DNA of 64,000 bases. It comes from Kribbella qitaiheensis (GTDB taxonomy: Bacteria > Actinomycetota > Actinomycetes > Propionibacteriales > Kribbellaceae). Every line of letters begins with the position of its first letter. Position 1 is the stretch's first letter. Below, piece by piece: positions 38,797-58,926 of the stretch. The DNA lies in contig NZ_CP043661.1 of assembly GCF_014217565.1 (NCBI RefSeq), positions 6,448,001 through 6,512,000 on the forward strand, given 5' to 3'. Position numbers and translations under genes: made by a program. The notes below the pieces were generated by a model. It had not been told where the DNA came from, searched no databases, and worked only from the letters and a program-made list of their open reading frames with translations.

Positions 38797-38825
38797 GGGT
38801 TTCCTTCCTAGGGGCGTCGGTCGGG

Positions 38826-41617: not shown

Positions 41618-42631
41618 GTGACAAAGATGACGCGAAAAGTTGTGCCGAGCATTCTCGACAGCATCGGTGACACGCCTCTGGTGGAGCTGGGGAACCTGAT
41701 CCCCGGTTTCCACTCCCGCGTTTTCGCGAAGATGGAACGGTTCAATCCCAGCGGCAGCATCAAGGACCGGACGGCTTACAGCATGATCCGGGCGGCACTG
41801 GCGTCAGGCGAGCTGGTTCCCGGGCGGTCGGTGGTGGTGGAGTCGAGCTCGGGCAACCTCGCCATCGGGCTGGCCCAGATCTGCCGGTACTTCGGCCTGC
41901 GGTTCATCTGCGTGGTCGACCGGAACACGACGGAGCGCAACCTGGCGATCCTGGACGCGTTCAAGGTCGAGGTGGAGGTGGTCACCGAGCCCGATCCGGC
42001 CGGTGGGCTGCTCGCCGCCCGGCTGCGGCGGGTCCGCGAGCTGGCCGCGACCGTCCCGAACGCCTACTGGCCGAACCAGTACGCCAATCCGATGAACCCC
42101 CGCGCACACCACGAGACGATGCGCGAGATCGAAGAAGCCCTGGCCGGCAAGGTCGACTACCTGTTCGCCTCGGTGAGCACGTTCGGCACCCTGCGCGGCT
42201 GCGCCGACCACATCCGCCGGGCCGGCCTGCCGACCACGGTGGTCGGGGTCGACGCCGTGGGCAGCGTGATCTTCGGCGGGTCGCCGGCGTCGCGACTGCT
42301 GCCGGGGCACGGCGCCTCGGTCCGGCCGCCGCTGGCCGACAACTCGATGGTCGACGAGGTGGTGCACATCTCCGACCTGGAGGCGGTGGTCTCCTGCCGC
42401 CGGCTGCTGATGACCGAGGCGATCCTCGGCGGCGGTTCGTCCGGCGCGACCGTGGCCGCGCTGGAGAAGTTCTCCGACCGGGTCCCGGCCGGCTCGAACT
42501 GCGTCCTGATCTTCCCCGACGGCGGCGACCGCTACGTCGACACCGTCTACTCCGACACCTGGGTCCGCCGGAACTTCGGCGAAGTCTCCCACCTCTGGAA
42601 GGAACCCTTTGAGATGAGCGTTCCCGCATGA
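41618..42631 (+). CDS. sbnA: SbnA-like N-(2-amino-2-carboxyethyl)-L-glutamate synthase (PLP)
   Basis: 337 aa from GTG at 41618 with GAGG upstream; ATG 41627 and GTG 41606 are alternatives. It is a cysteine-synthase fold with the PLP Lys in NPSGSIKDRTAYSM, SSSGNLAIGLAQIC and GGGSSGATVAAL. SbnA condenses O-phospho-L-serine with L-glutamate to give the precursor of L-2,3-diaminopropionate (Dap). It overlaps the SbnB-like gene (ATGA), the standard Dap pair seen in staphyloferrin B, viomycin and zwittermycin clusters. Confidence 0.93.
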   Translation: MTKMTRKVVPSILDSIGDTPLVELGNLIPGFHSRVFAKMERFNPSGSIKDRTAYSMIRAALASGELVPGRSVVVESSSGNLAIGLAQICRYFGLRFICVVDRNTTERNLAILDAFKVEVEVVTEPDPAGGLLAARLRRVRELAATVPNAYWPNQYANPMNPRAHHETMREIEEALAGKVDYLFASVSTFGTLRGCADHIRRAGLPTTVVGVDAVGSVIFGGSPASRLLPGHGASVRPPLADNSMVDEVVHISDLEAVVSCRRLLMTEAILGGGSSGATVAALEKFSDRVPAGSNCVLIFPDGGDRYVDTVYSDTWVRRNFGEVSHLWKEPFEMSVPA

Positions 42632-43617
42632 TCATCCTCGGTCATTCGGACGTGCGGGAGATCCTGTCCGGCAGCGAGCAGCAGACCCTCGAGGTGGTCC
42701 GGTCGGCGTACCGGCGGCACGACGAGGGCCGCTCCGCGGTACCGCACTCGGTCTTCCTGCGATTCCCCGGCGACAACCGCAACCGGATCATCGGGCTGCC
42801 TGCCTTCGCGGGTGGCGACAAGCCGGTCGCGGGCATGAAGTGGATCGCCTCCTTCCCTGGCAACGTGGAGCGGGGGCTGCAGCGCGCCAGCGCCGCGATC
42901 TTGCTCAACTCGCTGGAGAACGGTCACCCGGAAGCCCTGATCGAGGGCTCCCAGATCTCTGCCCGCCGTACGGCGGCGAGCGCGGCCGTCGCGGCCCAGG
43001 AGCTGACCGCGGGCGACCCGCCGACCGGCGTCACGCTGATCGGCACCGGCGTCATCAACCTGGAGGTGTTCCGGTTCCTCACCGAGGCGTTGCCCTCGAT
43101 CGAGGAGCTCACCGTCTTCGACACCGACGCCGAGCGGGCCGCGTCGTTCGCCGAGAAGTGCCAGGAGATCAAGCCGGTCAAGGCCAACCAGGCCGCCACC
43201 ATCGACGAGGCCATGGCCGCGCAGAAGCTGATCTCCTTCGCCACCACGGCGATCGAGCCGCACACAGGTCTTGACGCCTGCCAGCCGGGCACCGTCGTAC
43301 TGCACCTGTCGCTGCGTGACCTGTACGCCGACGCGATCGTTGCCGCGCGCAATGTTGTCGACGACGCGGACCACGTCTGCCGGGAGGGCACCTCGCTCTA
43401 CCTGGCCCAGCAGCAGACCGGCGGCCGCGCCTTCATCGACGCGCCGATCGGCGCCCTGCTCCGCGGTACGGCGAACGTCGACCGTGGCCCGGACGAGATC
43501 GTCGTCTACTCGCCATTCGGCCTCGGCGTACTGGACATGGCGCTGGCCGACTTCGTCCGGACAGAGGCGGAGCAGCGCGGTCTGGGCGCGACCTTCAACG
43601 ACTTCATTCCTGCCTGA
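42628..43617 (+). CDS. sbnB: SbnB-like N-(2-amino-2-carboxyethyl)-L-glutamate dehydrogenase
   Basis: 329 aa of the ornithine cyclodeaminase/mu-crystallin family: GMKWIASFPGN, ISARRTAASAAVAAQ, TLIGTGVINLEVFRFL (NAD-binding Rossmann loop) and VYSPFGLGVLDMALADFV. SbnB oxidatively cleaves the SbnA product to Dap and 2-oxoglutarate. Co-translated with the SbnA-like gene. Confidence 0.93.
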   Translation: MIILGHSDVREILSGSEQQTLEVVRSAYRRHDEGRSAVPHSVFLRFPGDNRNRIIGLPAFAGGDKPVAGMKWIASFPGNVERGLQRASAAILLNSLENGHPEALIEGSQISARRTAASAAVAAQELTAGDPPTGVTLIGTGVINLEVFRFLTEALPSIEELTVFDTDAERAASFAEKCQEIKPVKANQAATIDEAMAAQKLISFATTAIEPHTGLDACQPGTVVLHLSLRDLYADAIVAARNVVDDADHVCREGTSLYLAQQQTGGRAFIDAPIGALLRGTANVDRGPDEIVVYSPFGLGVLDMALADFVRTEAEQRGLGATFNDFIPA

Positions 43618-43633
43618 GAGAGGAGCAAGAAAG

Positions 43634-43852: not shown

Positions 43853-43889
43853 AACCCGTTCCATCCTTTCCCGCCAGGAGACGACTGCC

Positions 43890-44939
43890 ATGAGTGTGCA
43901 GACCACCGACAACTCTTTGATCCCTGCCCTCGTGGCCCAGCAGGCGGCGAGCTCGCCGAACGCGACGGCTGTCGTCGACGGTGATCGTGAGCTCAGCTAT
44001 GCCGAGCTGGACCAGCGGGCCGGCCGGCTCGCCCACCTCCTGCTGGAGGAAGGCGCCGGGCCGGAGACCGTGGTCGGTGTCGCGCTGGAGCGCGGCATCG
44101 ACCTGGTGGTCGCACTGCTCGCGGTGTGGCGGACCGGGGCCGGCTTCGTGACCATCGACCCGTCGTATCCGGCCGCGAGGTTGCAGTGGCTGCTGAGCGA
44201 CACCGGCGCCGAGCTGGTGCTCGCCGAGCACCAGCTCACCGAGGCGATCGAGAGCACCGGCGCACGAGTGATCGTGCCGTCCCGGCTGGTGACCGCGATC
44301 GCCGTCCGGCCGATCGAGCCGGCCCGGACGCCGGACCCGGACGGGCTCGCCTACGTGATGTACACGTCCGGTTCGACCGGTCAGCCCAAGGGCGTCGCGG
44401 TCACCCATGCCGGGATCGCGAACCGGGTCCGCTGGGCCGTCGACGCGCAGGCGCTGACCGAGAACGACCGGATCCTGCAGAAGACCCGGATCACCTTCGA
44501 CGCCATGGTGTGGGAGTTCTTCGGACCTCTCGTCAGTGGCGGCACCGTCGTACTGGCGCCCGCGGGCTCCGAGAGCGACCCCAAGGCCTTGCTGGAGGCG
44601 GTAACCCGGCAGCGCATCACCGTGCTCCAGGTCGTCCCGTCCGTACTGCGGTTGCTGGTGGACGAGTCCGGCTGGGATGCGACCGGTTCGCTGCGACTCG
44701 TGTCCTGCGCGGGCGAACCGCTGCACGCCGAGCTGGCTCAGCGGTTGCTGAAGTGCACCGATGTCGAGCTGTGGAACACCTACGGACCGACCGAGTGCTC
44801 GATCGACGTGACGGCGTTCCGTTTCGACGCGGAGCAGAAGACGGGGGCCGGTGCCGATCGGCCGGCCGATCAAGGGCATGCGCGTGCTGGTCCTCGACCC
44901 GGTCACCGGTTCGCCGGCAGCGGTCGGTGCCGTCGGTGA
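43890..44939 (+). CDS. NRPS1, 5' part: first adenylation domain (frame broken at 44841-44850)
   Basis: The frame begins with an A domain (LSYAELDQRAG, YVMYTSGSTGQPKGVAVTH, TFDAMVWEFFGPL, WNTYGPTECSIDVTAF) and runs in phase to FDAEQKTG at 44846. After that it becomes meaningless until a stop at 44937-44939, while the next frame picks up VPIGRPIKGMRVLVLD, exactly the continuation of the domain. Removing one G from the GGGGG run at 44843-44847 restores TGPVPIGRPI. Read as one 1634-residue protein, 43890-48795, with a single-base insertion or sequencing error. There is no C domain before this A domain. Confidence 0.8.
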   Translation: MSVQTTDNSLIPALVAQQAASSPNATAVVDGDRELSYAELDQRAGRLAHLLLEEGAGPETVVGVALERGIDLVVALLAVWRTGAGFVTIDPSYPAARLQWLLSDTGAELVLAEHQLTEAIESTGARVIVPSRLVTAIAVRPIEPARTPDPDGLAYVMYTSGSTGQPKGVAVTHAGIANRVRWAVDAQALTENDRILQKTRITFDAMVWEFFGPLVSGGTVVLAPAGSESDPKALLEAVTRQRITVLQVVPSVLRLLVDESGWDATGSLRLVSCAGEPLHAELAQRLLKCTDVELWNTYGPTECSIDVTAFRFDAEQKTGAGADRPADQGHARAGPRPGHRFAGSGRCRR

Positions 44940-47900
44940 GCTGTTCGCCGGTGGTGTGGGCGTGGCCCGTGGCTACCTGAACCGGCCCGACCTGACTGCC
45001 GAGCGGTTCGTGCCGGACCCGTACGGCAAGGACGGCTGGCGGCTGTACCGGACCGGCGACCTGGTCCGCTGGCGCGAGGACGGCAACCTCGAGTACGTCG
45101 GCCGCACCGACGACCAGGTCAAGATCAACGGAGTCAGGTTGGAGCCGGGCGAGATCGAGGCCGCGCTGACGGCTCACTCGAATGTCGCGGGAGCAGTAGT
45201 CACCGCGAAGGCCAAGGCGGACGGCAGCACTCAGCTGATCGCCTATGTGACGGCAGTCAGCACCGACGGGCTACGCAACCACCTGCTGGACCGCCTTCCC
45301 GAGACCCACGTACCGAGCGTGTTCGTTGCCGTCGACGAGTTCCCCCTGACGCCCAACGGCAAGGTGGACAAGCAGGCCCTGCCTGACCCGTTCAGCCGCG
45401 ACGACCGCGAGTACATCGCGCCGCGGACGACCGCGGAACAGTTGGTCGCCGACGTCTGGCGGCAGTTGCTCGGCGTCGAGCAGATCAGCGTCCACGACAG
45501 CTTCTTCGAATTGGGCGGCACCTCGCTGACCCTGACCCGGTTGGCCAACCAGCTGCGCGCGACCGCGGGTGGCGAGATCCAGCTCCGCGGGTTGCTTCGG
45601 GCAACGACCGTCGAGGCCCAGGCGAAGCTCATCTCCGTCGTGATGGACGACGGCACCCAGCTCACCGCCGTACCGCGGACCGGCGCCCTGCCGCTGTCCG
45701 CGAGCCAGCGACGCCTGTGGTTCATGGAGCAGCTGGAGACGGGTAGCAGCGAGTGGGTCGCCCCGACCTTCCTCCGGGTCCCCTCGGACACTCCCTTCGC
45801 CGCCGTTCAGAAGGCCGTCGACGCATTGGTCGCCCGGCACGAGCCGCTGCGTACCCGCTATCACGTGGTCGATGGTGAACCCACGCAGGTGATCGACGCG
45901 CCGGTGCCAGTCGAGCTTCGCGTGCTGGACATCGAGGTCGACGAGTTGGCCGCCATCCTGACCGAGGAGTTCAGCACCGGCTTCGACCTGGTCAACGGCC
46001 CTGTACTGCGGGTGCTGCTGACCCGTTCGAGCCGCGAACACCTGCTCACGCTCGCGATTCACCACATCGCCACGGACGGCTGGTCAGCTTCTGTCCTTGC
46101 TCGCGACTTCGCTGCCCTGCTGGAAGGCAAGACGCTCGAGCCGCTGGAGTTCCAGTACGCCGACTACGCGGCCTGGCAGCAGCGGACCCTGACCGAAGAG
46201 GTCGTCGCCCAGGAGCTCGACCACTGGCGCACCGCGCTCGACGGGGTCGTCCCGCTCGACCTGCCGACCGACCACACCCGGCCGCTGACTCGCGACCCGC
46301 ACGGCGCGATGGTGACCTTCACGATCCCCGCCGAACTGGCCACCGCGCTCGACGCGCTTGGCCGCAAGCACGGCTGTACTCCGTTCAGCACCCTGCTGAC
46401 CGCGTACGCAGGAGTGCTCGCCCGGTTCAGCGGGACCTGGGACGTGACCGTCGGCGCACCGGTCGCCGGTCGTGACCTCGGTCAGCTGGAGGACCTGGTC
46501 GGCTTCTTCCTGAACACCGTCGTACTGCGCTGCAAGCTGACCGCCGACGTGTCGTTCGACGAGGCGCTCGACCTGGTCCGGGCCTCCTGCGAGGACGCAT
46601 TCGCCCACTCGGGTCTGCCCTTCGACCGGCTGGTCGACGAGCTGGCCCCGGACCGCGACCTGTCCCGTACGCCGCTCTACCAGGCCGCCTTCGACTTCCA
46701 CGGTGAAGGCTTCTCCGGTGCCGAGGGCGACGAGGCGGACCTGGCCACGATCGAGGCGGCCCTGCAGGTGGCCAAGACCGACCTGACGCTGAACATGCGC
46801 AAGCTCGCCGACGGTTCATTGCTAGGAGCAATGGAATACGCGACGGCCCTGTTCGACCGCGGCACCATCGAGCGGATCACCGCGGCCTTCCTGCAGTTGC
46901 TGGAAAGCTTCGCCGCGGCGCCGGCAACGGCACTCGGAGCGGTGGATCTCCTCTCGGCGGCCGACCGGCACCAGCTGATCGTCGGTTGGAACGAGACGAC
47001 CATCGAGGTACCGGCTCTGACCGCCGCAGAGCGGTTCGAGGCACAGGCTGCCGAAACGCCGGACGCGATCGCGGTCTCGAGTGAGACCGGCGAAAAGTCG
47101 TACAAGTGTCTGGACAGGAACGCCAACCGGGTAGCGCATCACCTGGCAGCTCGTGGAGTCAAGCCGGGCGATGTCGTAGCCGTCCTGCTCGATCGTGGTC
47201 CGCTGTTGCTTGCCTCGATGCTGGGCGCATGGAAGGCGGGTGCGGCGTACCTGCCGATCGACCCGTCGACTCCGGACGACCGGATCGCTTACCTGCAAGA
47301 GGATGCGGCCGTCCACACCACCATCAGCCAGAGCCGGTACGCCGAGGTTGCCGGGAGCAACGTATTACTGGTCGACCAGGATGCCGACCTGATCGCCGCA
47401 CGATCGAGCGAGCCGCTTGAGGTCGAGGCCGACCTGGATGCGGCGGCATACGTGATCTACACGTCCGGCTCGACCGGCAAGCCGAAGGGCGTCGAGGTTC
47501 CGCATCGCGGCCTGGTGAACCACCTGGACTGGGCGGCGCGGGAGCTGGCCGGTGCGGGCACGGGCGGAGCGCCGGTGTTCTCGTCGGTCGCCTTCGACCT
47601 GGGCGTGCCGAACCTCTGGGCACCGCTGCTGGCGGGACAGACCGTGCACATGATGCCGGCGGACCTCGACCTCGGCGACCTTGGCAAGGCGATGGCCGAC
47701 CACGCGCCGTACAGCTTCGTGAAGCTGACCCCGTCGCACCTGGAGATCCTGTCCGCACAGCTGACCGCTGAGCAGGCACAAGGACTGGCCGAAGTACTGG
47801 TAGTAGCCGGGGAGCCGTTCACCCGCCGCGCGCTGGAGGCCTGGCGCGCACTGGCGCCGGACGTCCGGGTCATCAACGAATACGGACCCACCGAGGCCTC

Positions 47901-48795
47901 GGTCGGTACTTCGATCTACCCGGTGCCGGCGGACGACAAGTCCGACGTCCTGCCGATCGGGCTGCCGCTGCCGAACATGGCGATGTACGTCCTTGACGCC
48001 AACCAGCACTTGGTGCCGGTCGGAGTGGTGGGGGAGCTGTACGTCGGCGGCACCGGCGTCGCCAACGGCTACATCAACCGCCCCGAGCTGACCGCCGAGC
48101 GGTTCGTCAAGAGCCCGTACGGTCGTCTCTACCGCACCGGTGACGTGGTCCGGCGCCGGCCCGATGGGAACGTCGAGTTCCTCGGCCGGACCGACCACCA
48201 GGTGAAGATCCGCGGCTATCGGATCGAGCCGGAGGAGATCCAGATCGTCCTGGCCGGTCACGCCGGCGTCACCGACGCCCTGGTGATCGCCCGCGAGGAC
48301 AAGCCCGGCGACCTGCGGCTCGTCGCGTACTACGTGGGCACGGCCGGCGAGGAAGACCTGGCCGCGCACGCGACCAAGTCGCTCCCGGACTACCTGGTCC
48401 CGGCCGCGTTCGTGGTGCTCGACAAGCTGCCGCTGAACGCCAACGGCAAGGTCGACCGCGCCGCACTGCCGGTCCCGGAGAACACTGCGGCCGGCGAGCT
48501 GGAACTGCCGGGCACCGTCGTCGAGGAGCGGATCGCCGAGATCTGGGCCGAACTGCTCGACCGCGAGGTCGGCATCCGGGAGAACTTCTTCCGTAGCGGC
48601 GGCAACTCGATCCTGGCGATCCGGCTGATCGCGAAGCTCCAGAACGCGTTCGAGATCGACCTGCCGGTCCGGGCCGTCTTCGAGGGCCCGACGGTCGCCG
48701 AGTTGGCAGCAGCCGTCGAGGACCGGATCCGGGCCGAGATCGAGGCACTTACCGACACCGAAGTAGCACTCGCATCCACCGTTGAGGAGAACTAG
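44851..48795 (+). CDS. NRPS1, remainder: A1 C-terminal part-T-C-A-T
   Basis: In order: rest of A1 (LYRTGDLVRWREDGNLEYVGR, LTPNGKVDKQALP); T1 (FFELGGTSLTLTRL, Ser codon 45523); an LCL-type C domain (LPLSASQRRLWFMEQLE, HHIATDGWS at 46060); A2 (VIYTSGSTGKPKGVEVPH, FSSVAFDLGVPNLWAPLLAG, VINEYGPTEASVG); and T2 (NFFRSGGNSILAIRL, Ser codon 48607). Selectivity positions of A2 read by eye give D-L-P-K-V-A-E-V-G, close to Asn-type codes. There is no epimerase. The stop lies 3 bp before NRPS2. GTG 44851 is probably not a real start but the frame resumption point. Confidence 0.88.
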   Translation: MPIGRPIKGMRVLVLDPVTGSPAAVGAVGELFAGGVGVARGYLNRPDLTAERFVPDPYGKDGWRLYRTGDLVRWREDGNLEYVGRTDDQVKINGVRLEPGEIEAALTAHSNVAGAVVTAKAKADGSTQLIAYVTAVSTDGLRNHLLDRLPETHVPSVFVAVDEFPLTPNGKVDKQALPDPFSRDDREYIAPRTTAEQLVADVWRQLLGVEQISVHDSFFELGGTSLTLTRLANQLRATAGGEIQLRGLLRATTVEAQAKLISVVMDDGTQLTAVPRTGALPLSASQRRLWFMEQLETGSSEWVAPTFLRVPSDTPFAAVQKAVDALVARHEPLRTRYHVVDGEPTQVIDAPVPVELRVLDIEVDELAAILTEEFSTGFDLVNGPVLRVLLTRSSREHLLTLAIHHIATDGWSASVLARDFAALLEGKTLEPLEFQYADYAAWQQRTLTEEVVAQELDHWRTALDGVVPLDLPTDHTRPLTRDPHGAMVTFTIPAELATALDALGRKHGCTPFSTLLTAYAGVLARFSGTWDVTVGAPVAGRDLGQLEDLVGFFLNTVVLRCKLTADVSFDEALDLVRASCEDAFAHSGLPFDRLVDELAPDRDLSRTPLYQAAFDFHGEGFSGAEGDEADLATIEAALQVAKTDLTLNMRKLADGSLLGAMEYATALFDRGTIERITAAFLQLLESFAAAPATALGAVDLLSAADRHQLIVGWNETTIEVPALTAAERFEAQAAETPDAIAVSSETGEKSYKCLDRNANRVAHHLAARGVKPGDVVAVLLDRGPLLLASMLGAWKAGAAYLPIDPSTPDDRIAYLQEDAAVHTTISQSRYAEVAGSNVLLVDQDADLIAARSSEPLEVEADLDAAAYVIYTSGSTGKPKGVEVPHRGLVNHLDWAARELAGAGTGGAPVFSSVAFDLGVPNLWAPLLAGQTVHMMPADLDLGDLGKAMADHAPYSFVKLTPSHLEILSAQLTAEQAQGLAEVLVVAGEPFTRRALEAWRALAPDVRVINEYGPTEASVGTSIYPVPADDKSDVLPIGLPLPNMAMYVLDANQHLVPVGVVGELYVGGTGVANGYINRPELTAERFVKSPYGRLYRTGDVVRRRPDGNVEFLGRTDHQVKIRGYRIEPEEIQIVLAGHAGVTDALVIAREDKPGDLRLVAYYVGTAGEEDLAAHATKSLPDYLVPAAFVVLDKLPLNANGKVDRAALPVPENTAAGELELPGTVVEERIAEIWAELLDREVGIRENFFRSGGNSILAIRLIAKLQNAFEIDLPVRAVFEGPTVAELAAAVEDRIRAEIEALTDTEVALASTVEEN

Positions 48796-48798
48796 GCG

Positions 48799-51700
48799 AT
48801 GAGCACCGCTGACGCCCGCGAAGAACTGCTCCGCCGCCGGCTGGCCGGCGCGCGGGGAGGCAACCGGTCCACGATCGCCCGTGCGGACCGGGACAAGCCA
48901 CTGCCGTTGTCCTTCGGCCAGCAGCAGATGTGGTTCCTGAACCGGCTCGACACCGACAGCTCGGAGTACCTGCTGCCGGCGGCCCTACGGATGCGTGGGC
49001 CGCTCGACCTGGACGCCCTGCGCCGGGCATGGTCGGAGCTGCTGGCCAGGCACGAGATTCTCCGCACCCGGTACGAACTGCGCGATGGCGAGCCGGTCCA
49101 GGTCGTCGACGTTACCGGCGGGAGCGAACTCGGCCTGGTGGACGTCAGTGATGTACCGGCCGCCGAACGCGAGGCCAGGCTGACCGATCTGGTCACGCTG
49201 GAGACCTCGGCGGGCTTCGACCTCGAACGGGAGTGGCCGGCCCGCGCGACTCTGTTGCGTGCGGCAACCGACGATCACCTGCTGGTCGTGGTGTTGCACC
49301 ACATCGCCGGTGACGCCTGGTCGACCGAGCAGCTGTCGGCCGAGTTGAGCGAGCTGTACGGCGCTCACGCAGCCGGCATCACGCCGTCTCTCGACGAGCT
49401 GCCGCTGCAGTACGCCGACTTCGCCTCCTGGCAGCGGTCACAGGATCTGACCAAGGAGATCGGCTGGTGGCGTGAGCAGCTGGCCGGTATCCGACCGGTG
49501 GACCTGCCTTCGGACCGGCCGCGTCCGGCGGTCCGGAGCAAGGCCGGTGCCGACCTTCCCTTCGCCCTGCCGGACGGCCTGGCCGGGAAGGTGCGCGAGC
49601 TGGCCAGGAAGCACGACACCACGCCGTTCGTGGTCATGCTGACGGCGTACCAGCTGATGTTGTCTCGCTACACCGGCGAGCAGGACGTTGCCGTCGGCAC
49701 CGTTGTTTCCGGCCGCACCCGGCCCGAGCTGCAGCAGATGATCGGCTACGGCATCAACACGCTGGTGATCCGCAACCAGTGGTCGGGCGACCCGACCTTT
49801 GACGCGCTGGTCAAGGAAACGCGGGCTCGCGTGCTCGACGCCCACGACCATCAGACCGTGCCGTTCGCCAAGCTGGTGGACGACTTGCGGCCCGAGCGGG
49901 ACATGTCCCGGCCGCCGCTGTTCCAGGTCGCCTTCATCGTGCGGCAGGCGCAGCCCGACGCGTTCACGCTGGGCGAGGTGGTGGTCGAGCCGGTTCAGAG
50001 CGACTTCACCGTGGCGAAGTTCGACCTCAACCTGAAGCTCACCGAGACGACCGACGGTGCGCTGGACGGCGTACTGACCTATGCGACCGCGCTGTTCGAC
50101 CAGTCGACCGTGCAGCGGATGGCCGGTCACTTCGTCCGGCTGCTGGCCGCTTCGGTCGAAGCACCGCAGACCCGGCTGTCTGCACTGGAGATGTTCGGCG
50201 CAGACGAGTTCGACCAGCTGACCATCGGCTTCGCGAGCAGTGGCGGCGAGCTGGAGATCACCGAGCCGGTGTACCTCCAGGTGGCTCGCCAGGCTGCCGG
50301 CGAACTCGCAGTCGTCGACGGCGAGTCCCGGTTGTCGTACGGCGAGTTGAACGGCCGCGCCAACCGGTTGGCCCGGTTCCTGGTCGACGAGGGCGTCGGA
50401 CCCGAGTCGCGGGTCGCTGTCGCGATGCCGCGGTCCGCCGACCTGATCGTTGCCGTACTCGCCGTTCTCAAGGCCGGCGGCGCTTATGTTCCGATCGATC
50501 CGGACTACCCGGCCGACCGGAACAGCTACATCCTCGAGGACTCCGACCCGGAGCTGATCCTGGTCTCGGGCGCTTCGACTTCGGGGCTGCCGGCAACTTC
50601 CGTACCGACCGTGGCCGTCGACTACCAGGCCCGCTTCGCCGGCTTCTCCACCGAGGATCTCGGCATCACGGCCGGCCCCGACAACCCGGCTTACCTGATC
50701 TACACCTCCGGCTCGACCGGGCGGCCGAAAGGCGTAGTGATCGAGAACCGGCAGCTGTCGGGCTACCTCGCCTGGTGCGCCCGCGAGTACGACGGTCTGG
50801 CCGGCTCCTCGCTGCTTCACTCGTCGGTCTCGTTCGACCTGACGGTGAACGCATTGTGGGGCCCGCTGGTGCTCGGCGGGCACGTTGTCATCGGCTCCCT
50901 GGACGGCAGCGCGCCCGCCCCTGCAGTGGCACCCACGTTCGTCAAGGTGACCCCCAGCCACCTGCCGTTCCTGGTCGAACTGCCGGCCGGGTTCTCCCCG
51001 ACGGTCGACCTGATGACCGGTGGTGAGGCGCTGACCGGCGAGTCGGTCGACGCGTGGCGGGCCAAGTTCCCCGGCGTCACGGTGATCAACGAGTACGGGC
51101 CGACCGAGACGACCGTCGGCTGTACCGCGCTGCGGATCGAGCCGGACGACGAGCTGCCCGCGGGCGGACTGGCGATCGGCAAGCCGATGCCGAACTCGCG
51201 CATCTACGTGCTCGACGCGTTCCTGCGGCCGGCCCCGGTCGGCGTCGTCGGCGAGGTCTACGTCGCCGGTGACTGCGTCGCTCGCGGCTACCTGAACCGT
51301 CCCGATCTGACCGCGGAGAAGTTCGTCGCTTGCCCGTGGGGTGCTCCCGGTGAGCGGATGTACCGCACCGGCGACCTGGCGGCCTGGGACCTCGACGGCA
51401 CGCTGACCTGCCCGAGCCGGGTGGACAACCAGGTCAAGATCCACGGCTACCGCATCGAGCTCGGCGAGATCGAGACGACGCTGCAGCGGCATACCGGGAT
51501 CAGTCAGGCGATCGTGATCGCTCGCGACGGGCTGGCCGGCGACAAGCGGCTGGTCGCGTACGTCGTACCGGCGGCCGGTGTGGAGCTGAACCAGGCCGGG
51601 TTGCGTGGGCACGTGCAGGAGTGGCTGCCGGAGTACATGGTGCCGTCGGCGTTCGTCGTCCTGGACGCGATCCCGCTGACCGAGAACGGAAAGTCCGACC

Positions 51701-54700
51701 TTCGCGCGCTGCCGGCTCCGGGTGCTCCCGAGCAGACCTCGGCGCAGACGGTCGTTGCCCGGACCACGACCGAGGAGCAGTTGGCCGCGGTCTGGGGCAA
51801 GGTGCTCGGCCTGACCGAGGTCGATGTCCACACCAGCTTCTTCGAGCTCGGCGGCGACTCGCTCAGCGCGGTCGCGGTGGTCGGCGCACTGCGCGAGACC
51901 GGCGTGGACGTGGCGGTCTGGGACGTCTTCGAGTACCGCACCGTCGCGGCGCTGGCGGAGAAGCTGACCGGCCGGGCAGCGAAGGGGGAGACGTTCGTCG
52001 CTCCCTTCGCGCTGATCCCGGCCGACGACCGCGAACAGCTGCCGGAGGGGGTGACCGATGCCTATCCGTTGTCTCAAGCGCAGACCGGCATGGTGGCGGA
52101 GATGCTGGCTGGAGAAGACGAGGCGCACTACCACAACACGACCTCGCACCGGATCCTCGACGATCAGCCACTCGCGCCCGCCGCGCTGCAGCGAGCGGCC
52201 GACGTACTGGTCGAACGACACGCGAACCTGCGCACGTCGATCGATCTAGGCACCTACTCACGACCGCTGCAGCTGATTCACGCCACCGCCGCGATGCCGA
52301 TCGGGATCACCGACCTCGGTGCCGTGACGGCCGAGCAGCGGGACGAAGCGCTGCGGGCGTTCCGTGCCGCGGAGCGCTCCAACCCCTTCGACCTCACATC
52401 GCCCGCCCTGCTGCGCTTCCACGTGCACACGACGGCGGAGACCGACGGCTGGTGGCTGACCAGCACCGAGTGCCACGCGGTTTCCGAGGGGTGGAGCTAC
52501 CACTCGCTGCTGATGGAGCTCGTGACCACCTACCGCGCGATCCGCGACGGCGTCGAACTGGAGCCGGTCGAGACGCCGAAGGTCCGGTACGCCGACTTCA
52601 TCGCCGGCGAACTCGCCGCCGTCGCCTCCGAAGAGGACAAGGCCTACTGGCTGAACGTTGCCACCGGCTACACCCCGGTCGAGTTGCCCGCGGGCTGGGG
52701 CGAGCAGGGAGAGGCCCACGTCCTGTACGCCGGTGCGCGCAGCATGGATCTGGAGGACGGTCTCCGGGCGCTGGCCGCAAAGGCCGACGCGTCTCTCAAG
52801 AGCGTGATGCTTGCCGCGCACATCAAGGTGATGAGCCTGCTGAGCGCCGAGACCAGCTTCACTACCGGACTGGTCTGCGACGCCCGGCCCGAGGCCGCCG
52901 GCGCCGACCGCGTGCACGGGATGTACCTGAACACGTTGCCGTTCCCGGTCGAGCGTGGCGCCCGGACCTGGCTCGAGCTGGTCGAGCAGACCTTCGCGCG
53001 TGAGCTGGAGCTCTGGCCGCACCGCCGCTACCCGATGCCGCAGATCCAGCGCGACGCCGGCCAGCGGCTGATCAACGTGTTCTTCAACTACCAGGACTTC
53101 CGTCAGCTCGACGACAACCTGGTCGACCCGTACGCCGGTGAGACCTACGAGTCGATGGACGACATGCCTGTCGTCGCCTCGCGCCGGACCAGCCTGCAGA
53201 ACGAGAGCATCACCGAGGTCCCGCTGACGGTCTCGTCCCGTGGCGGCTACATCATCCTGACCGCCGACTCCCGCGTCATCAGCCGGGAGAACGCCGAGCG
53301 GCTGGCCGGCATCTACCGGTCGGTGCTCGAAGCGATGGCCGCCGATCCCGATGGCGACGCGCGTCTCGGTCACCTGCCGGCCGGTGAGGCTGCCCAGGTG
53401 TTGAAGGAGTTTGCCGAGGGGCCGGACGGCGACCCGGAGCCGCCGATCCTGCTCGACCTGATCGAGCAGTCGGTGCTGCAGAACCCGCACAAGACCGCGC
53501 TGCTCGCGCCCCGGCTCGAGCTGACGTATGCCGAACTGGACGAGCAGGCGAACAAGCTGGCCCGGTTGCTGATCACTCGTGGCGTCGGCCCGGAGTCGCG
53601 GGTCGCCGTGGCGCTGCCGCGGTCGCCTGAGCTGATCGTCGCGCTGCTCGCGGTGATCAAGGCCGGTGGCGTCTACGTGCCGATCGACCCGGAGAACCCG
53701 GCCGATCGGGTGGAGTACGTCCTCGCCGACTCGACGCCGCTCCTGCTGCTCACGGCCGACAACTTGCTCGACCGGCTGCCCGTCGGCGACGTACCGGTGC
53801 TGCTGACCGACGCAGCGTCGTACGCCGATCAGTCGGGTGAGCCCGTCACGAATGCGGACCGGCTGCAGCCGCTGCGGCGGGAGAACGCGATCTACGTGAT
53901 CTACACGTCCGGCTCGACGGGCAAGCCGAAGGGTGCCGTCCTCGAACACCGCCAGGTCGCGAACTACCTGGCCTGGGTGGCTCAGGACTGCGCCGCACTC
54001 GGCGAGTCGTCGCTGCTGCACTCGTCGGCTTCGTTCGACCTGACGGTCAACGCCCTCTGGGGGCCGCTGATTCTCGGTGGCACCGTGATCGTCGGGGTGC
54101 TGGACGGGACCGAGGAAGAGCCGATGGCCAAGCCGGCCTTCGTCAAGGTGACCCCGAGTCACCTGCCGATGCTGGCCGAGCTGTCCCAGGACTGGTCGCC
54201 CGCTTGGCATTTGATGACCGGCGGAGAACCCCTGCTCGGTGAGGTCGTGCAGACCTGGCGGGCGGCCAACCCCAGAGGTGTCGTGACCAACGAATACGGC
54301 CCGACCGAGACCACGGTCGCCTGTACGGCGATCACCTTCGCGCCGGGCGATCCGCTGGCCGACGGCCCGGTCGGCATCGGCCGGCCGATGCCGAATATCC
54401 GGATCTACGTGCTGGACGCCAATCTGCAGCCCACGCCGATCGGCGTGACAGGCGAGATCTACATCGCCGGACCGCAGGTCGCTCGTGGCTACCTGAACCG
54501 CCCGGACCTGTCGGCGGCCAAGTTCGTCGCCTGCCCGTGGGGCGCGCCAGGGGAGCGGATGTACCGCTCGGGTGACCTCGCGGCCTGGAACGCGGACGGG
54601 ACGCTGAGCTGCCCGACCCGGGTGGACGACCAAGTCAAGATCCACGGTTACCGGATCGAGCTCGGCGAGGTCGAGACGACGATCCTGCGGCACCCGGCGG

Positions 54701-57700
54701 TCGGGCATGCGACGGTGATCGCCCGTGAGGACCGGCCCGGCGACAAGAAGCTGGTCGCGTACGTCGTACCGGCGGGGCCGCCGCCTCCCGCCTTCCTTCC
54801 CTCATCTTCGCCACGCACTGGACTAGCGGAGCTGCGTCCTTTGGATCTCGATGAGTTGCGGGACGTCGTGGCCGGCTGGGTGCCGGAGTACATGGTTCCT
54901 GCCGCCTTTGTGCAGTTGCCTTCGCTGCCGCTCACCGCGAGTGGGAAGCTCAACCGGGCCGCCTTGCCGGCGCCTACGTTCACGGTCGAGACGACCGAGT
55001 TCGTGGCACCGCGGACCGCGGCTGAGCAGCAGGTGGCGGCAGTCTGGCGCAAGGCACTCGGGATCGACCGGGTCGGTGCGTACGACAGCTTCTTCGACCT
55101 CGGTGGCGACTCGATCAGCGCCGTCTCCGTCGTCGGTGGACTTCGCCGCGCCGGGCTCGACGCCGGCGTACGGGATGTCTTCGAGCTGCGCACTGTGGCA
55201 GCCCTGGCTGAAAAGATCACCGGTCGGCCTGCTGTCGTGGCCGAGGCCGCGGTCGAGCCGTTCGCGCTGATCGACTTGGCGGATCGGGCGCTGGTGCCGG
55301 CGGGGGTCGTGGATGCGTACCCGCTCTCCGAGGCGCAGACGGGGATGATGGTCGAACTGCTGTCGAGCGAGACGCCGCGGAACTACCACAACGTTGTCTC
55401 GACGCGGCTGACCGACGAGAAGCCCTTGTCTGTCGAGGCTTTGCGGCAGGCGGCTGCTCTGCTGCTGGAGCGTCACGAAGTACTGCGGACCGGCGTCGAC
55501 CTGGAGAACTTTTCCGTCCCGATGCAACTGGTGCACGCCACGGCGGAGCTTCCGCTGCACGTGGAGGACCTCACCGGTCTTTCCTCGGCCGCACAGGCAG
55601 AAGCCATCGCATCCTTCAAGGCTCGTGAGCAGGCGACGCACTTCCAGCACGAAGCGCCGCCGCTGCTGCGGCTGGCTGTGCACAAGATCGACGAGCACAG
55701 CTGGGAGGCGACCGTCACCCAGAACCACGTGATCCTGGAGGGCTGGAGCCACCACGGCCTGGTGATGGAGCTGCTCGACTACTACCTGCGCTTCCGCGAC
55801 GGGGTCTCACAGGAGGCATACGAGGCTCCGCCGGTCCGGTTCGCCGATGCGATCGCAGGCGAGCTCAAGGCGCTACGCTCCGACGAGGACCGCGCGTACT
55901 GGTCGAAGGTGGCCGCGCTGCAGAAGTTCTCCATCCCGGCGGGCTGGGCCGGTGACACGTCGGCCGAGCGTACGGCGTACCGGATCGAGGTCTCGTACGC
56001 CGACCTGGAGCAGAAGCTGCGCGCGGTCGCGTCGGAGGCGCAGACGTCGCTGAAGAGCGTCTTCTTCGCTGCCCACCTGGCAGTGCTCAGCTCACTGACG
56101 GACAGCCGCGAGTTCCACAGCGGCCTGACCTGCCACATCCGGCCGGCCATCGAAGGTGCCGAGCGGGTCTACGGCATGCACCTCAACATGCTGCCGGTGC
56201 CTCATCGCCGCGAGGCGGGAAGTTGGCGGGAGCTGGTTGCCCGGACCTTTGCGGCCGAGTCGGACCTGTGGCCGTACCGGTTCTTCCCGATGCCTGTCAT
56301 CCAGCGGGACCTGAGCAAGCAGCGGCGACTGCTGGACGTGTTCTTCAGCTACCAGGACTACTCGTCGGTGGCGGCGAAGGCCGCTGGGACCGGGATCGAA
56401 GGACTGGACGCGAGCGTTGCCAGTGGGACGACCGAGTTCCCGCTGTCGGTGGCGACCGGGCCGGGGTACCTGGCCGTTCGCTCCAACACCCACGCACTCG
56501 ACCGGGTGGCGGCCGACAAGCTCGCCGCGATGTACCGGAAGGCGCTCGAGGCGATCGTCGAAGCACCTGATGCTCGCTGGGACACCTACGAGTTGCTGCC
56601 AACCGCTGACCGTGCCGGGCTGACGGCCGCACCTGTGGAGAAGGCTGAGGCAGGTCCGGCGTTCGTGCCGCCGCGGACGGAGACGGAGCGGATCCTCGCG
56701 AAGATCTGGGCGAAGCTGCTCGACATCCCGCGGGTGGGTGCGTTCGACCACTTCTTCGACCTGGGCGGCTACTCGATGCTGCTGGTGAAGACGGTCTCGA
56801 AGGCCAAAGCGAAGGGGCTGCCGCTGTCCCTGTTCATGTACTACGACAGTGACCGGCTCGACCACCTCGCACTGGCCGTCGACGCCGCCATCGCCGCCGA
56901 GCGCGGCACCGCGCCTGCCAGTTGGTACGGCGTCGGTGTCGACATGTTGCCTCAGGCAATGGAAGAGCTGAAGGTGCCTGGTGCGACGGTCGCGGTGATG
57001 GAAGGCGGCGAACTGGTCGCGGTCAGGGCGTTCGGCACGGTGTTCGAAGGTGGCGAGGCGGTGACGGGGGAGACGCTGTTCACGGTGGCGTCTGTCAGCA
57101 AGCTGGTCTCCTCGGTCGGTGCGCTCAAGTTGGTCGACGACGGTGTGCTGGATCTCGACGAGGACATTCACACCTACCTGACCAGCTGGGAGGTGCCTGG
57201 TCGTCCGCGGGTCAGCTTGCGGCAATTGCTCGGGCACCGGTCCGGATTCACTGCGTCGCCTGGTGGCGGGGTTGCTCCCTCTGAAGAGGCGCCGACGCTG
57301 CTCGACGTACTGAACGGGAAGGCGCCTGCGACGAACGATCCGATCCGGTGCGAGCACCAGCCGGGGGAGAAGTTCGTCAAGGCCGGTGCCAACTTCGTCG
57401 TACTGCAGCAGGTGATCGAGGACGTCACCGGAGAGTCCTTCGAGACGGTCATGCGCCGGCTCGTACTGGACCCGCTCGGGATGGCGGGATCGAGCTACGA
57501 CCCGTCGTTCCCTGTTGTCTCCGGACGGACTGTTGCCCTCGGCCACCTTGCCGAAGGGGAGCCGCTCGAGGGTGGCTGGCGGGTGCGGGCGGATGCCGCC
57601 TCGGGCGGTCTTTGGACCACGGCCGGTGACATCGCCACGCTGACTCTGGAGATCCGCCGGTCCTACCTCGGCCGGCCGCGGGCGCTGCTCTCGCAGGCGA

Positions 57701-57927
57701 TCGCGCGGCAGATGCTGACCCCGTCCGGGGACGGCTCGTTCGGTCTCGGCGCTACCGCGGAACTGAACGGCGACGACGTGCAGTTCGGCCACGGCGGCGA
57801 ACCGCGCGGGTACTACGGCGGCACCATCTGCCGCACCGGTCCCGGCCACGGCTTCGTCCTGCTGGCCAACGGCACCGCCGGCAAGAACCTCGCCCAGGGG
57901 CTGGCCAGCCGGCTCGCCTCTTCCTAA
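48799..57927 (+). CDS. NRPS2: C-A-T-C-A-T-C-T with C-terminal PBP/beta-lactamase-like domain
   Basis: 3042 aa. C1 (PLSFGQQQMWFLNRLD; HHIAGDA, residues 167-173), A3 (~485-960), T3 (Ser1021), C2 (DAYPLSQAQTGM; CHAVSEG 1225-1231), A4 (~1550-2010, with a Pro-rich insert near its end), T4 (Ser2105), C3 (NHVILEG 2309-2315), T5 (GGYSM, Ser2659) with no A domain before it, then a serine-hydrolase domain of the PBP/class C beta-lactamase fold (SVSK 2765-2768; KAG 2861-2863 where YxN is expected; HGG 2998-3000). A3 and A4 codes read D-L-N-K-M-G-E-V-G/A. There are no E or MT domains and no classical GxSxG thioesterase. It assembles at least two residues and releases the chain. Confidence 0.92.
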   Translation: MSTADAREELLRRRLAGARGGNRSTIARADRDKPLPLSFGQQQMWFLNRLDTDSSEYLLPAALRMRGPLDLDALRRAWSELLARHEILRTRYELRDGEPVQVVDVTGGSELGLVDVSDVPAAEREARLTDLVTLETSAGFDLEREWPARATLLRAATDDHLLVVVLHHIAGDAWSTEQLSAELSELYGAHAAGITPSLDELPLQYADFASWQRSQDLTKEIGWWREQLAGIRPVDLPSDRPRPAVRSKAGADLPFALPDGLAGKVRELARKHDTTPFVVMLTAYQLMLSRYTGEQDVAVGTVVSGRTRPELQQMIGYGINTLVIRNQWSGDPTFDALVKETRARVLDAHDHQTVPFAKLVDDLRPERDMSRPPLFQVAFIVRQAQPDAFTLGEVVVEPVQSDFTVAKFDLNLKLTETTDGALDGVLTYATALFDQSTVQRMAGHFVRLLAASVEAPQTRLSALEMFGADEFDQLTIGFASSGGELEITEPVYLQVARQAAGELAVVDGESRLSYGELNGRANRLARFLVDEGVGPESRVAVAMPRSADLIVAVLAVLKAGGAYVPIDPDYPADRNSYILEDSDPELILVSGASTSGLPATSVPTVAVDYQARFAGFSTEDLGITAGPDNPAYLIYTSGSTGRPKGVVIENRQLSGYLAWCAREYDGLAGSSLLHSSVSFDLTVNALWGPLVLGGHVVIGSLDGSAPAPAVAPTFVKVTPSHLPFLVELPAGFSPTVDLMTGGEALTGESVDAWRAKFPGVTVINEYGPTETTVGCTALRIEPDDELPAGGLAIGKPMPNSRIYVLDAFLRPAPVGVVGEVYVAGDCVARGYLNRPDLTAEKFVACPWGAPGERMYRTGDLAAWDLDGTLTCPSRVDNQVKIHGYRIELGEIETTLQRHTGISQAIVIARDGLAGDKRLVAYVVPAAGVELNQAGLRGHVQEWLPEYMVPSAFVVLDAIPLTENGKSDLRALPAPGAPEQTSAQTVVARTTTEEQLAAVWGKVLGLTEVDVHTSFFELGGDSLSAVAVVGALRETGVDVAVWDVFEYRTVAALAEKLTGRAAKGETFVAPFALIPADDREQLPEGVTDAYPLSQAQTGMVAEMLAGEDEAHYHNTTSHRILDDQPLAPAALQRAADVLVERHANLRTSIDLGTYSRPLQLIHATAAMPIGITDLGAVTAEQRDEALRAFRAAERSNPFDLTSPALLRFHVHTTAETDGWWLTSTECHAVSEGWSYHSLLMELVTTYRAIRDGVELEPVETPKVRYADFIAGELAAVASEEDKAYWLNVATGYTPVELPAGWGEQGEAHVLYAGARSMDLEDGLRALAAKADASLKSVMLAAHIKVMSLLSAETSFTTGLVCDARPEAAGADRVHGMYLNTLPFPVERGARTWLELVEQTFARELELWPHRRYPMPQIQRDAGQRLINVFFNYQDFRQLDDNLVDPYAGETYESMDDMPVVASRRTSLQNESITEVPLTVSSRGGYIILTADSRVISRENAERLAGIYRSVLEAMAADPDGDARLGHLPAGEAAQVLKEFAEGPDGDPEPPILLDLIEQSVLQNPHKTALLAPRLELTYAELDEQANKLARLLITRGVGPESRVAVALPRSPELIVALLAVIKAGGVYVPIDPENPADRVEYVLADSTPLLLLTADNLLDRLPVGDVPVLLTDAASYADQSGEPVTNADRLQPLRRENAIYVIYTSGSTGKPKGAVLEHRQVANYLAWVAQDCAALGESSLLHSSASFDLTVNALWGPLILGGTVIVGVLDGTEEEPMAKPAFVKVTPSHLPMLAELSQDWSPAWHLMTGGEPLLGEVVQTWRAANPRGVVTNEYGPTETTVACTAITFAPGDPLADGPVGIGRPMPNIRIYVLDANLQPTPIGVTGEIYIAGPQVARGYLNRPDLSAAKFVACPWGAPGERMYRSGDLAAWNADGTLSCPTRVDDQVKIHGYRIELGEVETTILRHPAVGHATVIAREDRPGDKKLVAYVVPAGPPPPAFLPSSSPRTGLAELRPLDLDELRDVVAGWVPEYMVPAAFVQLPSLPLTASGKLNRAALPAPTFTVETTEFVAPRTAAEQQVAAVWRKALGIDRVGAYDSFFDLGGDSISAVSVVGGLRRAGLDAGVRDVFELRTVAALAEKITGRPAVVAEAAVEPFALIDLADRALVPAGVVDAYPLSEAQTGMMVELLSSETPRNYHNVVSTRLTDEKPLSVEALRQAAALLLERHEVLRTGVDLENFSVPMQLVHATAELPLHVEDLTGLSSAAQAEAIASFKAREQATHFQHEAPPLLRLAVHKIDEHSWEATVTQNHVILEGWSHHGLVMELLDYYLRFRDGVSQEAYEAPPVRFADAIAGELKALRSDEDRAYWSKVAALQKFSIPAGWAGDTSAERTAYRIEVSYADLEQKLRAVASEAQTSLKSVFFAAHLAVLSSLTDSREFHSGLTCHIRPAIEGAERVYGMHLNMLPVPHRREAGSWRELVARTFAAESDLWPYRFFPMPVIQRDLSKQRRLLDVFFSYQDYSSVAAKAAGTGIEGLDASVASGTTEFPLSVATGPGYLAVRSNTHALDRVAADKLAAMYRKALEAIVEAPDARWDTYELLPTADRAGLTAAPVEKAEAGPAFVPPRTETERILAKIWAKLLDIPRVGAFDHFFDLGGYSMLLVKTVSKAKAKGLPLSLFMYYDSDRLDHLALAVDAAIAAERGTAPASWYGVGVDMLPQAMEELKVPGATVAVMEGGELVAVRAFGTVFEGGEAVTGETLFTVASVSKLVSSVGALKLVDDGVLDLDEDIHTYLTSWEVPGRPRVSLRQLLGHRSGFTASPGGGVAPSEEAPTLLDVLNGKAPATNDPIRCEHQPGEKFVKAGANFVVLQQVIEDVTGESFETVMRRLVLDPLGMAGSSYDPSFPVVSGRTVALGHLAEGEPLEGGWRVRADAASGGLWTTAGDIATLTLEIRRSYLGRPRALLSQAIARQMLTPSGDGSFGLGATAELNGDDVQFGHGGEPRGYYGGTICRTGPGHGFVLLANGTAGKNLAQGLASRLASS

Positions 57928-57954
57928 TCGGCACGGCCCCTAGGGAGTATTGAA

Positions 57955-58926
57955 ATGCATAAAGACAAAGGGAAAGACAAAGGGAAGGCGGGGGTAGGGG
58001 TGCGACACCTGATCTCGACTGACGACCTGACCGACGACGAACTGCGGTACGTGGTGGACCGCGGCGACGACTTCTCATCCGGCCGGGCCACGCTGGACCT
58101 GCCGCTGGCCGGTCAGATCGCCGGGATCTACTTCCGCAAGACCTCGACCCGGACGCGTACGGCCTTCTCGGCCGGCGCGCTCCGGCTCGGCGCGCAGATC
58201 GTTGCCTACGGCCCCGATGACCTGCAGCTGAACACCGGCGAGACGAGCGAGGACACCGGCGCGGTGTTCTCCCGGATGCTCGACGTCCTGGTCGCCCGGA
58301 CCGCCGGCGACCCGGCCGAGATGCGGGCCTGGGCCTCCCAGGACCGGATGTCGGTGATCAACGCGATGAGCTCGGCCGAGCACCCGACGCAAGCGGTGAC
58401 CGACCTGGTCACCTTGCAGCGCCGCTTCGGCAAGATCGAGGGACTGCGAGTCCTGTACGTCGGGGAGGGCAACAACTCGGCTGCTTCGATCGCGCTCGCC
58501 GCCACCCGCTACCCCGGCGTACACCTCGAACTCCGAACGCCGGCCGGCTACGGCCTCGACCCGGAGATCGCGGCCCGCTCGACCGCCCACGCCGAACGCT
58601 GCGGCTCGACCCTGATCGAACGCCACGACATGAACGACCTGCCGGACAGTCTGGACGCGATCTACACCACCCGCTGGCAGACCACCGGCACCACCAAGCC
58701 GGACGCGAACTGGCGCGACATCTTCGACCCGTTCCAGGTGAACGCCGCCCTGTGGGACCAGAACCCGCAGGCGATCTTCCTCCACGACCTCCCGGCCCAC
58801 CGCGGCGAAGAGGTCACCGCCGAAATCCTCGACGGCCCGATGAGCATCGCCTTCGACCAAGCAGAAAACAAAATGCACGCCGCCATGGCAGTCCTCGACT
58901 GGTGCCGCCGCGGGACAGTGGAATGA
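57955..58926 (+). CDS. OTCase/ATCase-family carbamoyltransferase with modified substrate motif
   Basis: 323 aa from ATG at 57955 with AGGGAG 8 nt upstream; GTG 58000 would remove a Lys-rich leader encoded by a 12-bp duplication. Carbamoyl-phosphate motifs are intact: KTSTRTRTAF (STRTR 64-68) and SAEHPTQAVTD (HPTQ 143-146). The ornithine-type HCLP is HDLP (277-280) and the SMG-like loop reads VGEGNNSAASI. A carbamoyltransferase in a Dap-NRPS cluster parallels VioL and ZmaT, which build ureido groups on Dap. Its own acceptor is likely Dap or a peptide amine, not ornithine. Confidence 0.88.
   Translation: MHKDKGKDKGKAGVGVRHLISTDDLTDDELRYVVDRGDDFSSGRATLDLPLAGQIAGIYFRKTSTRTRTAFSAGALRLGAQIVAYGPDDLQLNTGETSEDTGAVFSRMLDVLVARTAGDPAEMRAWASQDRMSVINAMSSAEHPTQAVTDLVTLQRRFGKIEGLRVLYVGEGNNSAASIALAATRYPGVHLELRTPAGYGLDPEIAARSTAHAERCGSTLIERHDMNDLPDSLDAIYTTRWQTTGTTKPDANWRDIFDPFQVNAALWDQNPQAIFLHDLPAHRGEEVTAEILDGPMSIAFDQAENKMHAAMAVLDWCRRGTVE

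Follow-up and report, generated by a model that had tools for sequence, protein, structure and literature searches.

A Kribbella lipopeptide-type gene cluster with a putative diaminopropionate transcarbamylase and a fused PBP-fold release domain

The stretch of DNA analysed here (the window) comprises 64,000 nucleotides of Kribbella qitaiheensis, positions 6448001-6512000 of an 8.16-Mb one-contig genome (NZ_CP043661.1). It contains a nonribosomal peptide synthetase (NRPS) gene cluster in which genes for the supply of L-2,3-diaminopropionate (Dap) occur together with a carbamoyltransferase gene. The cluster spans about 31 kb to 76.9 kb in extended window coordinates and continues beyond the window end. 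On the plus strand, the adjacent genes sbnA (41606..42631; TIGR03945, 422.6 bits, cut-off 350) and sbnB (42628..43617; TIGR03944, 390.3 bits, cut-off 327) both score above the cut-offs of their equivalog models, which bears out the initial annotation of the pair as the Dap supply. They are followed by the NRPS reading frames nrps0 (43890..44939), nrps1 (44851..48795) and nrps2 (48799..57927) and then, as had also been noted, directly by the carbamoyltransferase gene (57955..58926; PF02729 and PF00185). The plus-strand series continues with an MFS exporter, a gene without assigned function, a DUF6182 gene, two TauD-type dioxygenases (TauD1 and TauD2), a type II thioesterase, an MbtH protein, a 3381-residue NRPS (nrps3, 65680-75825) and an AsnO-type hydroxylase (75866-76870), of which nrps3 and the hydroxylase were found outside the window. 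On the minus strand, leading away from sbnA, lie genes for an acyl carrier protein (ACP), an acyl-CoA dehydrogenase (ACAD)-like protein, a fatty acyl-AMP ligase (FAAL)-like protein, a phosphopantetheinyl transferase, a second FAAL-like protein and two further ACAD-like proteins, down to position 31112. The cluster is flanked by a LuxR-type regulator and MalQ on one side and by TetR, SDR and BTAD-type regulator genes on the other.

L-2,3-diaminopropionate transcarbamylases (DPTCases) are described as having HDLP and (T/S)RWQTTG, the sole known 2,4-diaminobutyrate (Dab) enzyme as having TRWQSMG and ornithine enzymes as having DxxxSMG (PMC4581275). The carbamoyltransferase of the window has TRWQTTG and HDLP (in LHDLPAHRGEE), and the ornithine carbamoyltransferase motifs DxxxSMG and HCLP are absent from it. 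For comparison, 88 sequences were aligned: those of the window, of 80 relative loci (out of 331 relatives, the 80 most similar to the window enzyme) and of five Kribbella loci, with the genome's own ArgF (L002) and an aspartate-type enzyme (L003) as controls. HDLP is present in all 86 compared copies, which are not all independent because L007 and L089, and probably also L008 and L088, come from the same genome. The form xRWQTTG occurs in 84 of the 86 (T in 80, A in two, S in two) and TRWETTG in two, and SMG in none. The closest carbamoyltransferases among the loci compared belong to Kribbella monticola (92%) and K. catacumbae (87%). The possibility of a housekeeping ornithine carbamoyltransferase was dropped, since the genome has the separate ArgF, which is 34% identical to the window enzyme and keeps both ornithine motifs (DTWVSMG and HCLP). 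Ornithine specificity had been named in the initial annotation as a result that would speak against its reading; by sequence, the motifs favour the annotation. A carbamoyltransferase relative at 59% was also seen on large plasmids of Streptomyces clavuligerus (NZ_CP045850, NZ_CP027859 and NZ_CP086233), where it is unannotated in the plasmid table. When a plasmid collection was searched for a zwittermicin copy (91 records, 40 listed), the nearest among the matches listed were all from Streptomyces.

The carbamoyltransferase is linked to SbnA across genomes. An SbnA of at least 59% identity was found in 29 of 29 searched genomes carrying the carbamoyltransferase (30 loci submitted). An even class sample of 296 genomes, in which the best seven candidates per genome were scored at thresholds of E 1e-90 for the carbamoyltransferase and E 1e-100 for a close SbnA, contained 12 genomes with the former, 11 with the latter and nine with both. 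Without the own genome, eight genomes have both, three the carbamoyltransferase only, two SbnA only and 282 neither (Fisher p 5.6e-12, a value that is too small because the sampled genomes are related). On the same contig the two genes are 1.9-27.8 kb apart (eight pairs in seven genomes; 16.3 kb in the window), and in G068 they are on different contigs. Within Kribbella, the carbamoyltransferase occurs in six of 38 genomes and SbnA in the same six, 16.1-16.3 kb away. Moreover, two Plantactinospora loci, L015 (3386-5465) and L018 (8822-10946), encode a penicillin-binding protein (PBP)-fold domain and the carbamoyltransferase in one open frame without a stop, with 57 residues between the matches. 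By sequence, this would be a natural fusion, and it ties the enzyme to this kind of NRPS. The DPTCase signature together with the linkage to a close SbnA suggests that the carbamoyltransferase most likely makes beta-ureidoalanine (Uda).

The domains of the NRPSs were assigned by motif and Pfam. The order in nrps3 is C-A*-A-T-C-A-T-(T)-E-C, with condensation (C), adenylation (A), carrier (T) and epimerisation (E) domains and a truncated A domain (A*); two T domains precede the E domain in the window and in G361, and one in G352, G331 and G357. The frame nrps0 contains the core of an A domain with the code DAWQxATID and is broken at its 3' part, and nrps1 supplies the rest of this domain, followed by T, C, A (DLPKVAEVG) and T. 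The domains of nrps2 are C-A(DLNKMGEVG)-T-C'-A(DLNKMGEVA)-T-C'-T-PBP, where C' denotes C domains with [C/N]HxxxEGW; the last module (C'-T-PBP) is without an A domain. From these domain orders we infer that the three synthetases would join without a gap only as nrps3, nrps0/1, nrps2. The codes, some positions of which were read by hand, are DVWHFSLID (A*), DLTKLGEVG, DVGYLGQID, DAWQxATID, DLPKVAEVG, DLNKMGEVG and DLNKMGEVA. By the Stachelhaus positions, DVWHFSLID would be a Ser code and DLTKLGEVG an Asn code. The latter fits the hydroxylase encoded at the cluster end, which matches the AsnO structure 2og5 at 1.7e-112. Position 299 of the DAWQxATID code is written as x because it reads S when aligned by hand and V when aligned by HMM. 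The pattern D(A/L)(W/L)QxAT(I/V)D is present in 11 of 16 loci that have an SbnA of at least 55% inside the fetched stretch, which supports, and does not prove, Dap as the substrate; it is not found in L061, L065 (6.5 kb only), L069, L070 and L076 despite SbnA, and L082 has a Dap-type code with no SbnA in its stretch. The DAWQxATID domain probably loads Dap.

Two further features of the assembly line are unusual. In nrps3 (L005:5680-15825), A* is a Ser-coded A core that lacks A6-A10 and has no T or C domain, being fused straight to the complete Asn-type A domain. It is present in all five Kribbella clusters, and its identity to the window copy in three relatives is 292/304, 237/301 and 240/302, compared with 405/480, 342/475 and 348/475 for the complete A domain. 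The ratio of nonsynonymous to synonymous substitution rates (dN/dS) was calculated by NG86 with our own script for three pairs of a relative and the window. It is 0.06-0.25 for A*; the neighbouring A domain gave 0.19-0.33 in its core and 0.16-0.26 in its remainder, and the preceding C domain 0.09-0.27. Purifying selection acts on A* at least as strongly as on the complete domains beside it. Among the C domains, the EGW type ([C/S/N/A]HxxxEGW) accounts for 60 of 104 matches to [HCSNAGP]HxxxD/EGW in the NRPS frames of the 80 loci and the extended window. With regard to a dual condensation/epimerisation function of the [C/N/S]HxxxEGW domains, the second His motif was not seen by eye. The C domain of the first module has the motif HHVTFDGY, by which it may be of the starter type.

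The domain that closes nrps2 (56869..57927) belongs to PF00144. The release by a PBP-type enzyme in the initial annotation stands with respect to this domain; the Tyr of the YxN motif is absent, and the domain is fused and not stand-alone. In an alignment of 41 copies (from the window, 36 of the 80 relative loci and four Kribbella regions; L007 and G331 represent one genome), all 41 have the Ser and Lys of SxxK, and 40 have the His of HxG. In the PBP fold, Tyr is the general base. At this position, which was set by alignment with R61, Tyr occurs in none of the 41 copies and Lys in 36; the others have P, Q, R, N and E once each. Where the locus edge leaves the frame whole, the PBP copies stand at the end of a long NRPS frame and are followed by no more than about 70 residues; the exceptions are L015 and L018, in which the carbamoyltransferase comes next in frame. 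The copy of L030 is on a 530-residue frame at the locus end. The AlphaFold model of the domain has a mean pLDDT of 86, and Foldseek matched it to PBP-fold proteins including SurE (TMq 0.69, rmsd 5.8) and the R61 DD-peptidase. By sequence profile, SurE (6ksu, 1.4e-29) and Ulm16 (1.3e-17) ranked behind general esterases and DD-peptidases, and the match to SurE ends at residue 366-367 of 471 and does not include the lipocalin-like C-terminal domain. Hydrolysis is as compatible with the fold as cyclisation, so that ring closure is something we infer. An E domain was not seen in the last module, which contains a C' domain. At the 34 PBP loci outside Kribbella, an A domain starts at most 2.6 kb before the PBP domain in 30 and at most 2.9 kb before it in L026 and L032, and the stretch ends first in L011 and L030. 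Unlike these loci, the Kribbella clusters have C-T without an A domain in the place directly before the PBP domain. An in-cis PBP cyclase was not found in the open-licence PubMed Central literature searched, which does not prove its absence.

The gene order of the window is kept in four Kribbella genomes (G361, G352, G331 and G357), in which the lipid genes are syntenic with the NRPS genes. G357 has only 28-29% matches to the two accessory ACAD-like proteins, in the place of its ACAD1, and therefore lacks both. In G361, about 4.7 kb of additional DNA follows the exporter gene, and the fetched stretch breaks off within the third NRPS, before the place of AsnO. The five Kribbella clusters share the same A codes; the one difference is a single position in the truncated A domain of G357. 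Two genes between the exporter and TauD1 (60862-62606), one with a weak kinase-like match and the other of DUF6182, were seen in the window and G361 only, with no match in G352, G331 and G357. Outside Kribbella, G162 and G290, which are of one genus, combine FAAL-like and ACAD-like genes, sbnAB, an NRPS with PBP, the carbamoyltransferase, the MFS gene and the two TauD genes; their genus also includes G172, in which SbnA sits at the same place as in the Streptomyces genome of L022. Besides Kribbella, related gene sets are found in Streptomyces, Actinomadura, Plantactinospora and other genomes. The observation is real and conserved, and it is better supported than it was from the window sequence alone. 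Two other types of cluster may be mentioned separately. A Streptomyces group (L020, L038, L058, L022, L027 and L031) combines a DPTCase with the codes DITQQGEIA-DLPKIAEVG-DLPGVAEVA, and three of its six loci (L020, L038 and L058) have a VioC/AsnO-like gene at 50%. A further type (L054, L057, L063, L066 and L082) has a DPTCase and the codes DAWQ(V/F)ATID, DVDE... and DARSVSQMT, with SbnA in the first four.

The genes for a lipid starter lie on the minus strand. The free-standing ACP (40580..40891) is clear (PF00550, 53.9 bits) and is followed by ACAD1 (38826..40526; PF00441 and PF02770) and FAAL1 (37012..38799, one end approximate). The FAAL models were matched below the curated NCBIfam cut-offs, for which reason we call this protein, and the second AMP-binding protein (34428..36218; PF00501, 128 bits), FAAL-like; of the FAAL/ACP starter in the initial annotation, the ACP is secure and the FAAL is narrowed to this name. 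Between the two lies a 4'-phosphopantetheinyl transferase gene (36243..36983; PF01648, 66 bits), the approximate start of which was inferred from the overlap with FAAL1. The second ACAD-like protein (32740..34431; weak PF02771/PF00441) may desaturate the acyl chain and is not found in G357. The third (31112..32743) itself has no Pfam or NCBIfam match; it shows 28% identity to the ACAD1 region of G357 and is syntenic in G361, G352 and G331, and not in G357. On the plus strand, the exporter (59082..60341, start approximate) belongs to PF07690, and both TauD proteins belong to PF02668, TauD1 (62680..63630) with an HNE iron motif recognised by eye and TauD2 (63663..64673) with its window part reaching to 64000. 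Two dioxygenases had been reported for the window; both were found, and together with the AsnO-type hydroxylase outside it the dioxygenases total three.

Taken together, we consider it likely that the locus is a Kribbella lipopeptide NRPS cluster that uses Dap and carbamoylated Dap and releases its product by a PBP-fold domain. At the gene level, the idea of a lipopeptide built with Dap synthesis and a carbamoyltransferase is supported. SbnA and SbnB would provide L-Dap, which the carbamoyltransferase would convert with carbamoyl phosphate to Uda. The FAAL-like protein, the ACP and the ACAD-like enzymes would prepare a fatty acyl chain, probably unsaturated, which the first C domain of nrps3 would attach to residue 1. 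Along the order nrps3, nrps0/1, nrps2, the predicted product would be a peptide of some seven residues with an acyl group at its start: Asn, with hydroxylation by the AsnO homologue, an epimerised residue X, Dap, three residues of Asn-like code, one or more of which would be Uda, and the residue of the A-less last module. That last module may receive its residue in trans from the Dap A domain, in the manner of capreomycin, and the fused PBP-fold domain would release the chain, probably by ring closure onto the side-chain amine of Dap. As a speculation that we regard as unlikely to hold in full, the fused domain may represent a new class of cis-acting NRPS cyclase that has the PBP fold with Lys where Tyr is usual, works without an E domain to supply a D-residue and forms a lariat lactam onto the Dap side chain. 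In Kribbella, one Dap A domain would then serve two positions, as it would also load the terminal module in trans, and the Ser-coded half A domain, being kept under purifying selection no weaker than that on its complete neighbours, would be a working part.

Several observations weigh against the proposed pathway. The last T domain of nrps2 was assigned by motif only and is unrecognised by Pfam at 0.001; the FAAL models fall short of their cut-offs (PRK05850, 397 bits versus 775); G162 and G290 have neither an AsnO match nor a counterpart of nrps3 in their fetched stretches; and three of the 11 carriers in the even sample (G141, G180 and G288) are without a close SbnA at E 1e-100. Furthermore, DLPKVAEVG A domains occur in four genomes of one genus (G190, G045, G170 and G116) and in G253 without a DPTCase or a close SbnA; the carbamoyltransferases in these five genomes are all distant (34-35%), and their SbnA-like proteins reach at most 38%. 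In G190 (L134/L135), the one of the four whose surroundings were read, the code lies in a C-A(DLPKVAEVG)-T-TE-MFS protein, and the same short cluster has a TauD1 homologue (70%), a glycosyltransferase and a protein with a carrier domain. Neither the code nor TauD1 is therefore tied to Uda, and the idea of DLPKVAEVG as a Uda-specific code is weakened. These genomes would agree with a tailoring route, in which the carbamoyl group is added to loaded Dap or to the finished peptide and the true substrate of the Asn-like A domains is Asn or hydroxy-Asn. Two further observations would suit such a route: in L015 and L018 the enzyme is joined to the NRPS at its PBP end and could work on carrier-bound Dap, and the DPTCase loci L045, L049, L054, L057, L063 and L066 show no DLPK code within the fetched stretch. 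However, DLPK/DMPK codes track the DPTCase in the even sample, where 13 genomes besides the own have them, eight of 11 carriers versus five of 284 non-carriers (codes read in 30 of 47 genomes with a match, five best candidates per genome scored), and the family is described as carbamoylating Dap itself (PMC4581275). We regard tailoring as the less probable route, albeit one to be taken seriously.

The frame break bears on a different question, namely whether the Dap A domain is really disrupted and the line silent in the window strain as part of a decayed cluster. In this genome alone, nrps0 and nrps1 are in different frames, which also counts against the proposed pathway, whereas the four Kribbella relatives have a single open frame of 1639-1698 residues from stop to stop. 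The two frames appear to be offset by one base close to a stretch of five G, so that the break may be a sequencing error or a recent mutation. No further broken gene was seen among the core genes, and decay seems unlikely to us. It is considerably less likely that the cluster makes a metallophore in which Dap and hydroxy-Asn/Asp residues from the AsnO and TauD enzymes bind iron. Hydroxylases of these types are present and SbnA/SbnB also serve siderophores, but no genes for siderophore uptake, hydroxamates or catechols are among the identified genes (not every ORF was scanned), and we know of no chelating role of carbamoylated Dap. Least probable of all is a carbamoyltransferase specific for ornithine or Dab that would make citrulline or its lower homologue. 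The best NCBIfam matches are indeed ornithine carbamoyltransferase models, and the database annotation of the homologues says the same. However, these matches are below cut-off (248 versus 306 and 242 versus 281), DxxxSMG is missing while HDLP is present, the motif ends in TTG and not in the SMG of the sole known Dab enzyme, and the gene is linked to SbnA.

In line with the initial annotation, which had recognised no family, a characterised cluster with the same gene set was not found in the open-licence PubMed Central literature. The Dap of tuberactinomycins is made by SbnA/SbnB-type enzymes. In contrast to the tuberactinomycin systems, the window cluster has an acyl start and a PBP-fold release, and its A-less unit stands at the end, on the same protein as the PBP domain. 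Capreomycidine genes are not among the identified genes of the cluster, and a VioC-type capreomycidine pathway was rejected (TIGR03946, 162 bits versus a cut-off of 419), the VioC-like match being the AsnO homologue, to which 2og5 is far closer. A Dap transcarbamylase is shared with viomycin and capreomycin (PMC4581275), and capreomycin has an A-less NRPS module loaded in trans with Dap (PMC12400406), an A-less module being present here too. Among daptomycin-type calcium-dependent lipopeptides, there is an Asp-rich calcium motif that is not encountered here. No Asp code was found among the A domains of the cluster. Zwittermicin A is a hybrid PKS-NRPS product of Bacillus and is not known to have such a lipopeptide line; the gene of its Dap transcarbamylase is ZmaT. 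That enzyme is likewise encoded in an NRPS-containing cluster (PMC4581275). The rotihibin cluster of Streptomyces scabies shares a FAAL, two ACADs, an ACP, MbtH, an asparagine oxygenase, a type II-like thioesterase and an A-less module with the window; it differs in having Dab and citrulline for Dap and Uda, reductive release and, in its gene table, no carbamoyltransferase (PMC8552735). Enamidonin, autucedine, olenamidonin, taeanamide and rotihibin were rejected as products because their residues or enzymes do not fit.

Among the sources of antibiotics for use against resistant Gram-positive bacteria, lipopeptides are a main one. A lipopeptide family that contains Dap and probably carbamoyl-Dap, and to which no product is assigned in the open-licence PubMed Central literature, is a concrete target, and the terminal A-less module could provide a second system for studying trans-loading with Dap. 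With the surugamide-type PBP cyclases SurE, Ulm16, PenA, WolJ and FlkO, the fused domain has the PBP fold, SxxK and HxG in common. Those enzymes are described as stand-alone, as possessing a lipocalin-like domain and as joining an L residue at the N-terminus to a D residue at the C-terminus (PMC11735501). The domain of the window, in contrast, is fused in cis, has no lipocalin-like domain, carries Lys at the Tyr position and is preceded by no E domain in the last module. If it is a true cis cyclase, it would widen a class that a 2024 review calls stand-alone. Judged by its genes, the cluster is a variant of known NRPS lipopeptide systems that carries a putative Dap transcarbamylase and a fused PBP-fold release domain. 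Unusual are this fused domain with Lys at the Tyr position, the A-less last module and the half A domain under purifying selection.

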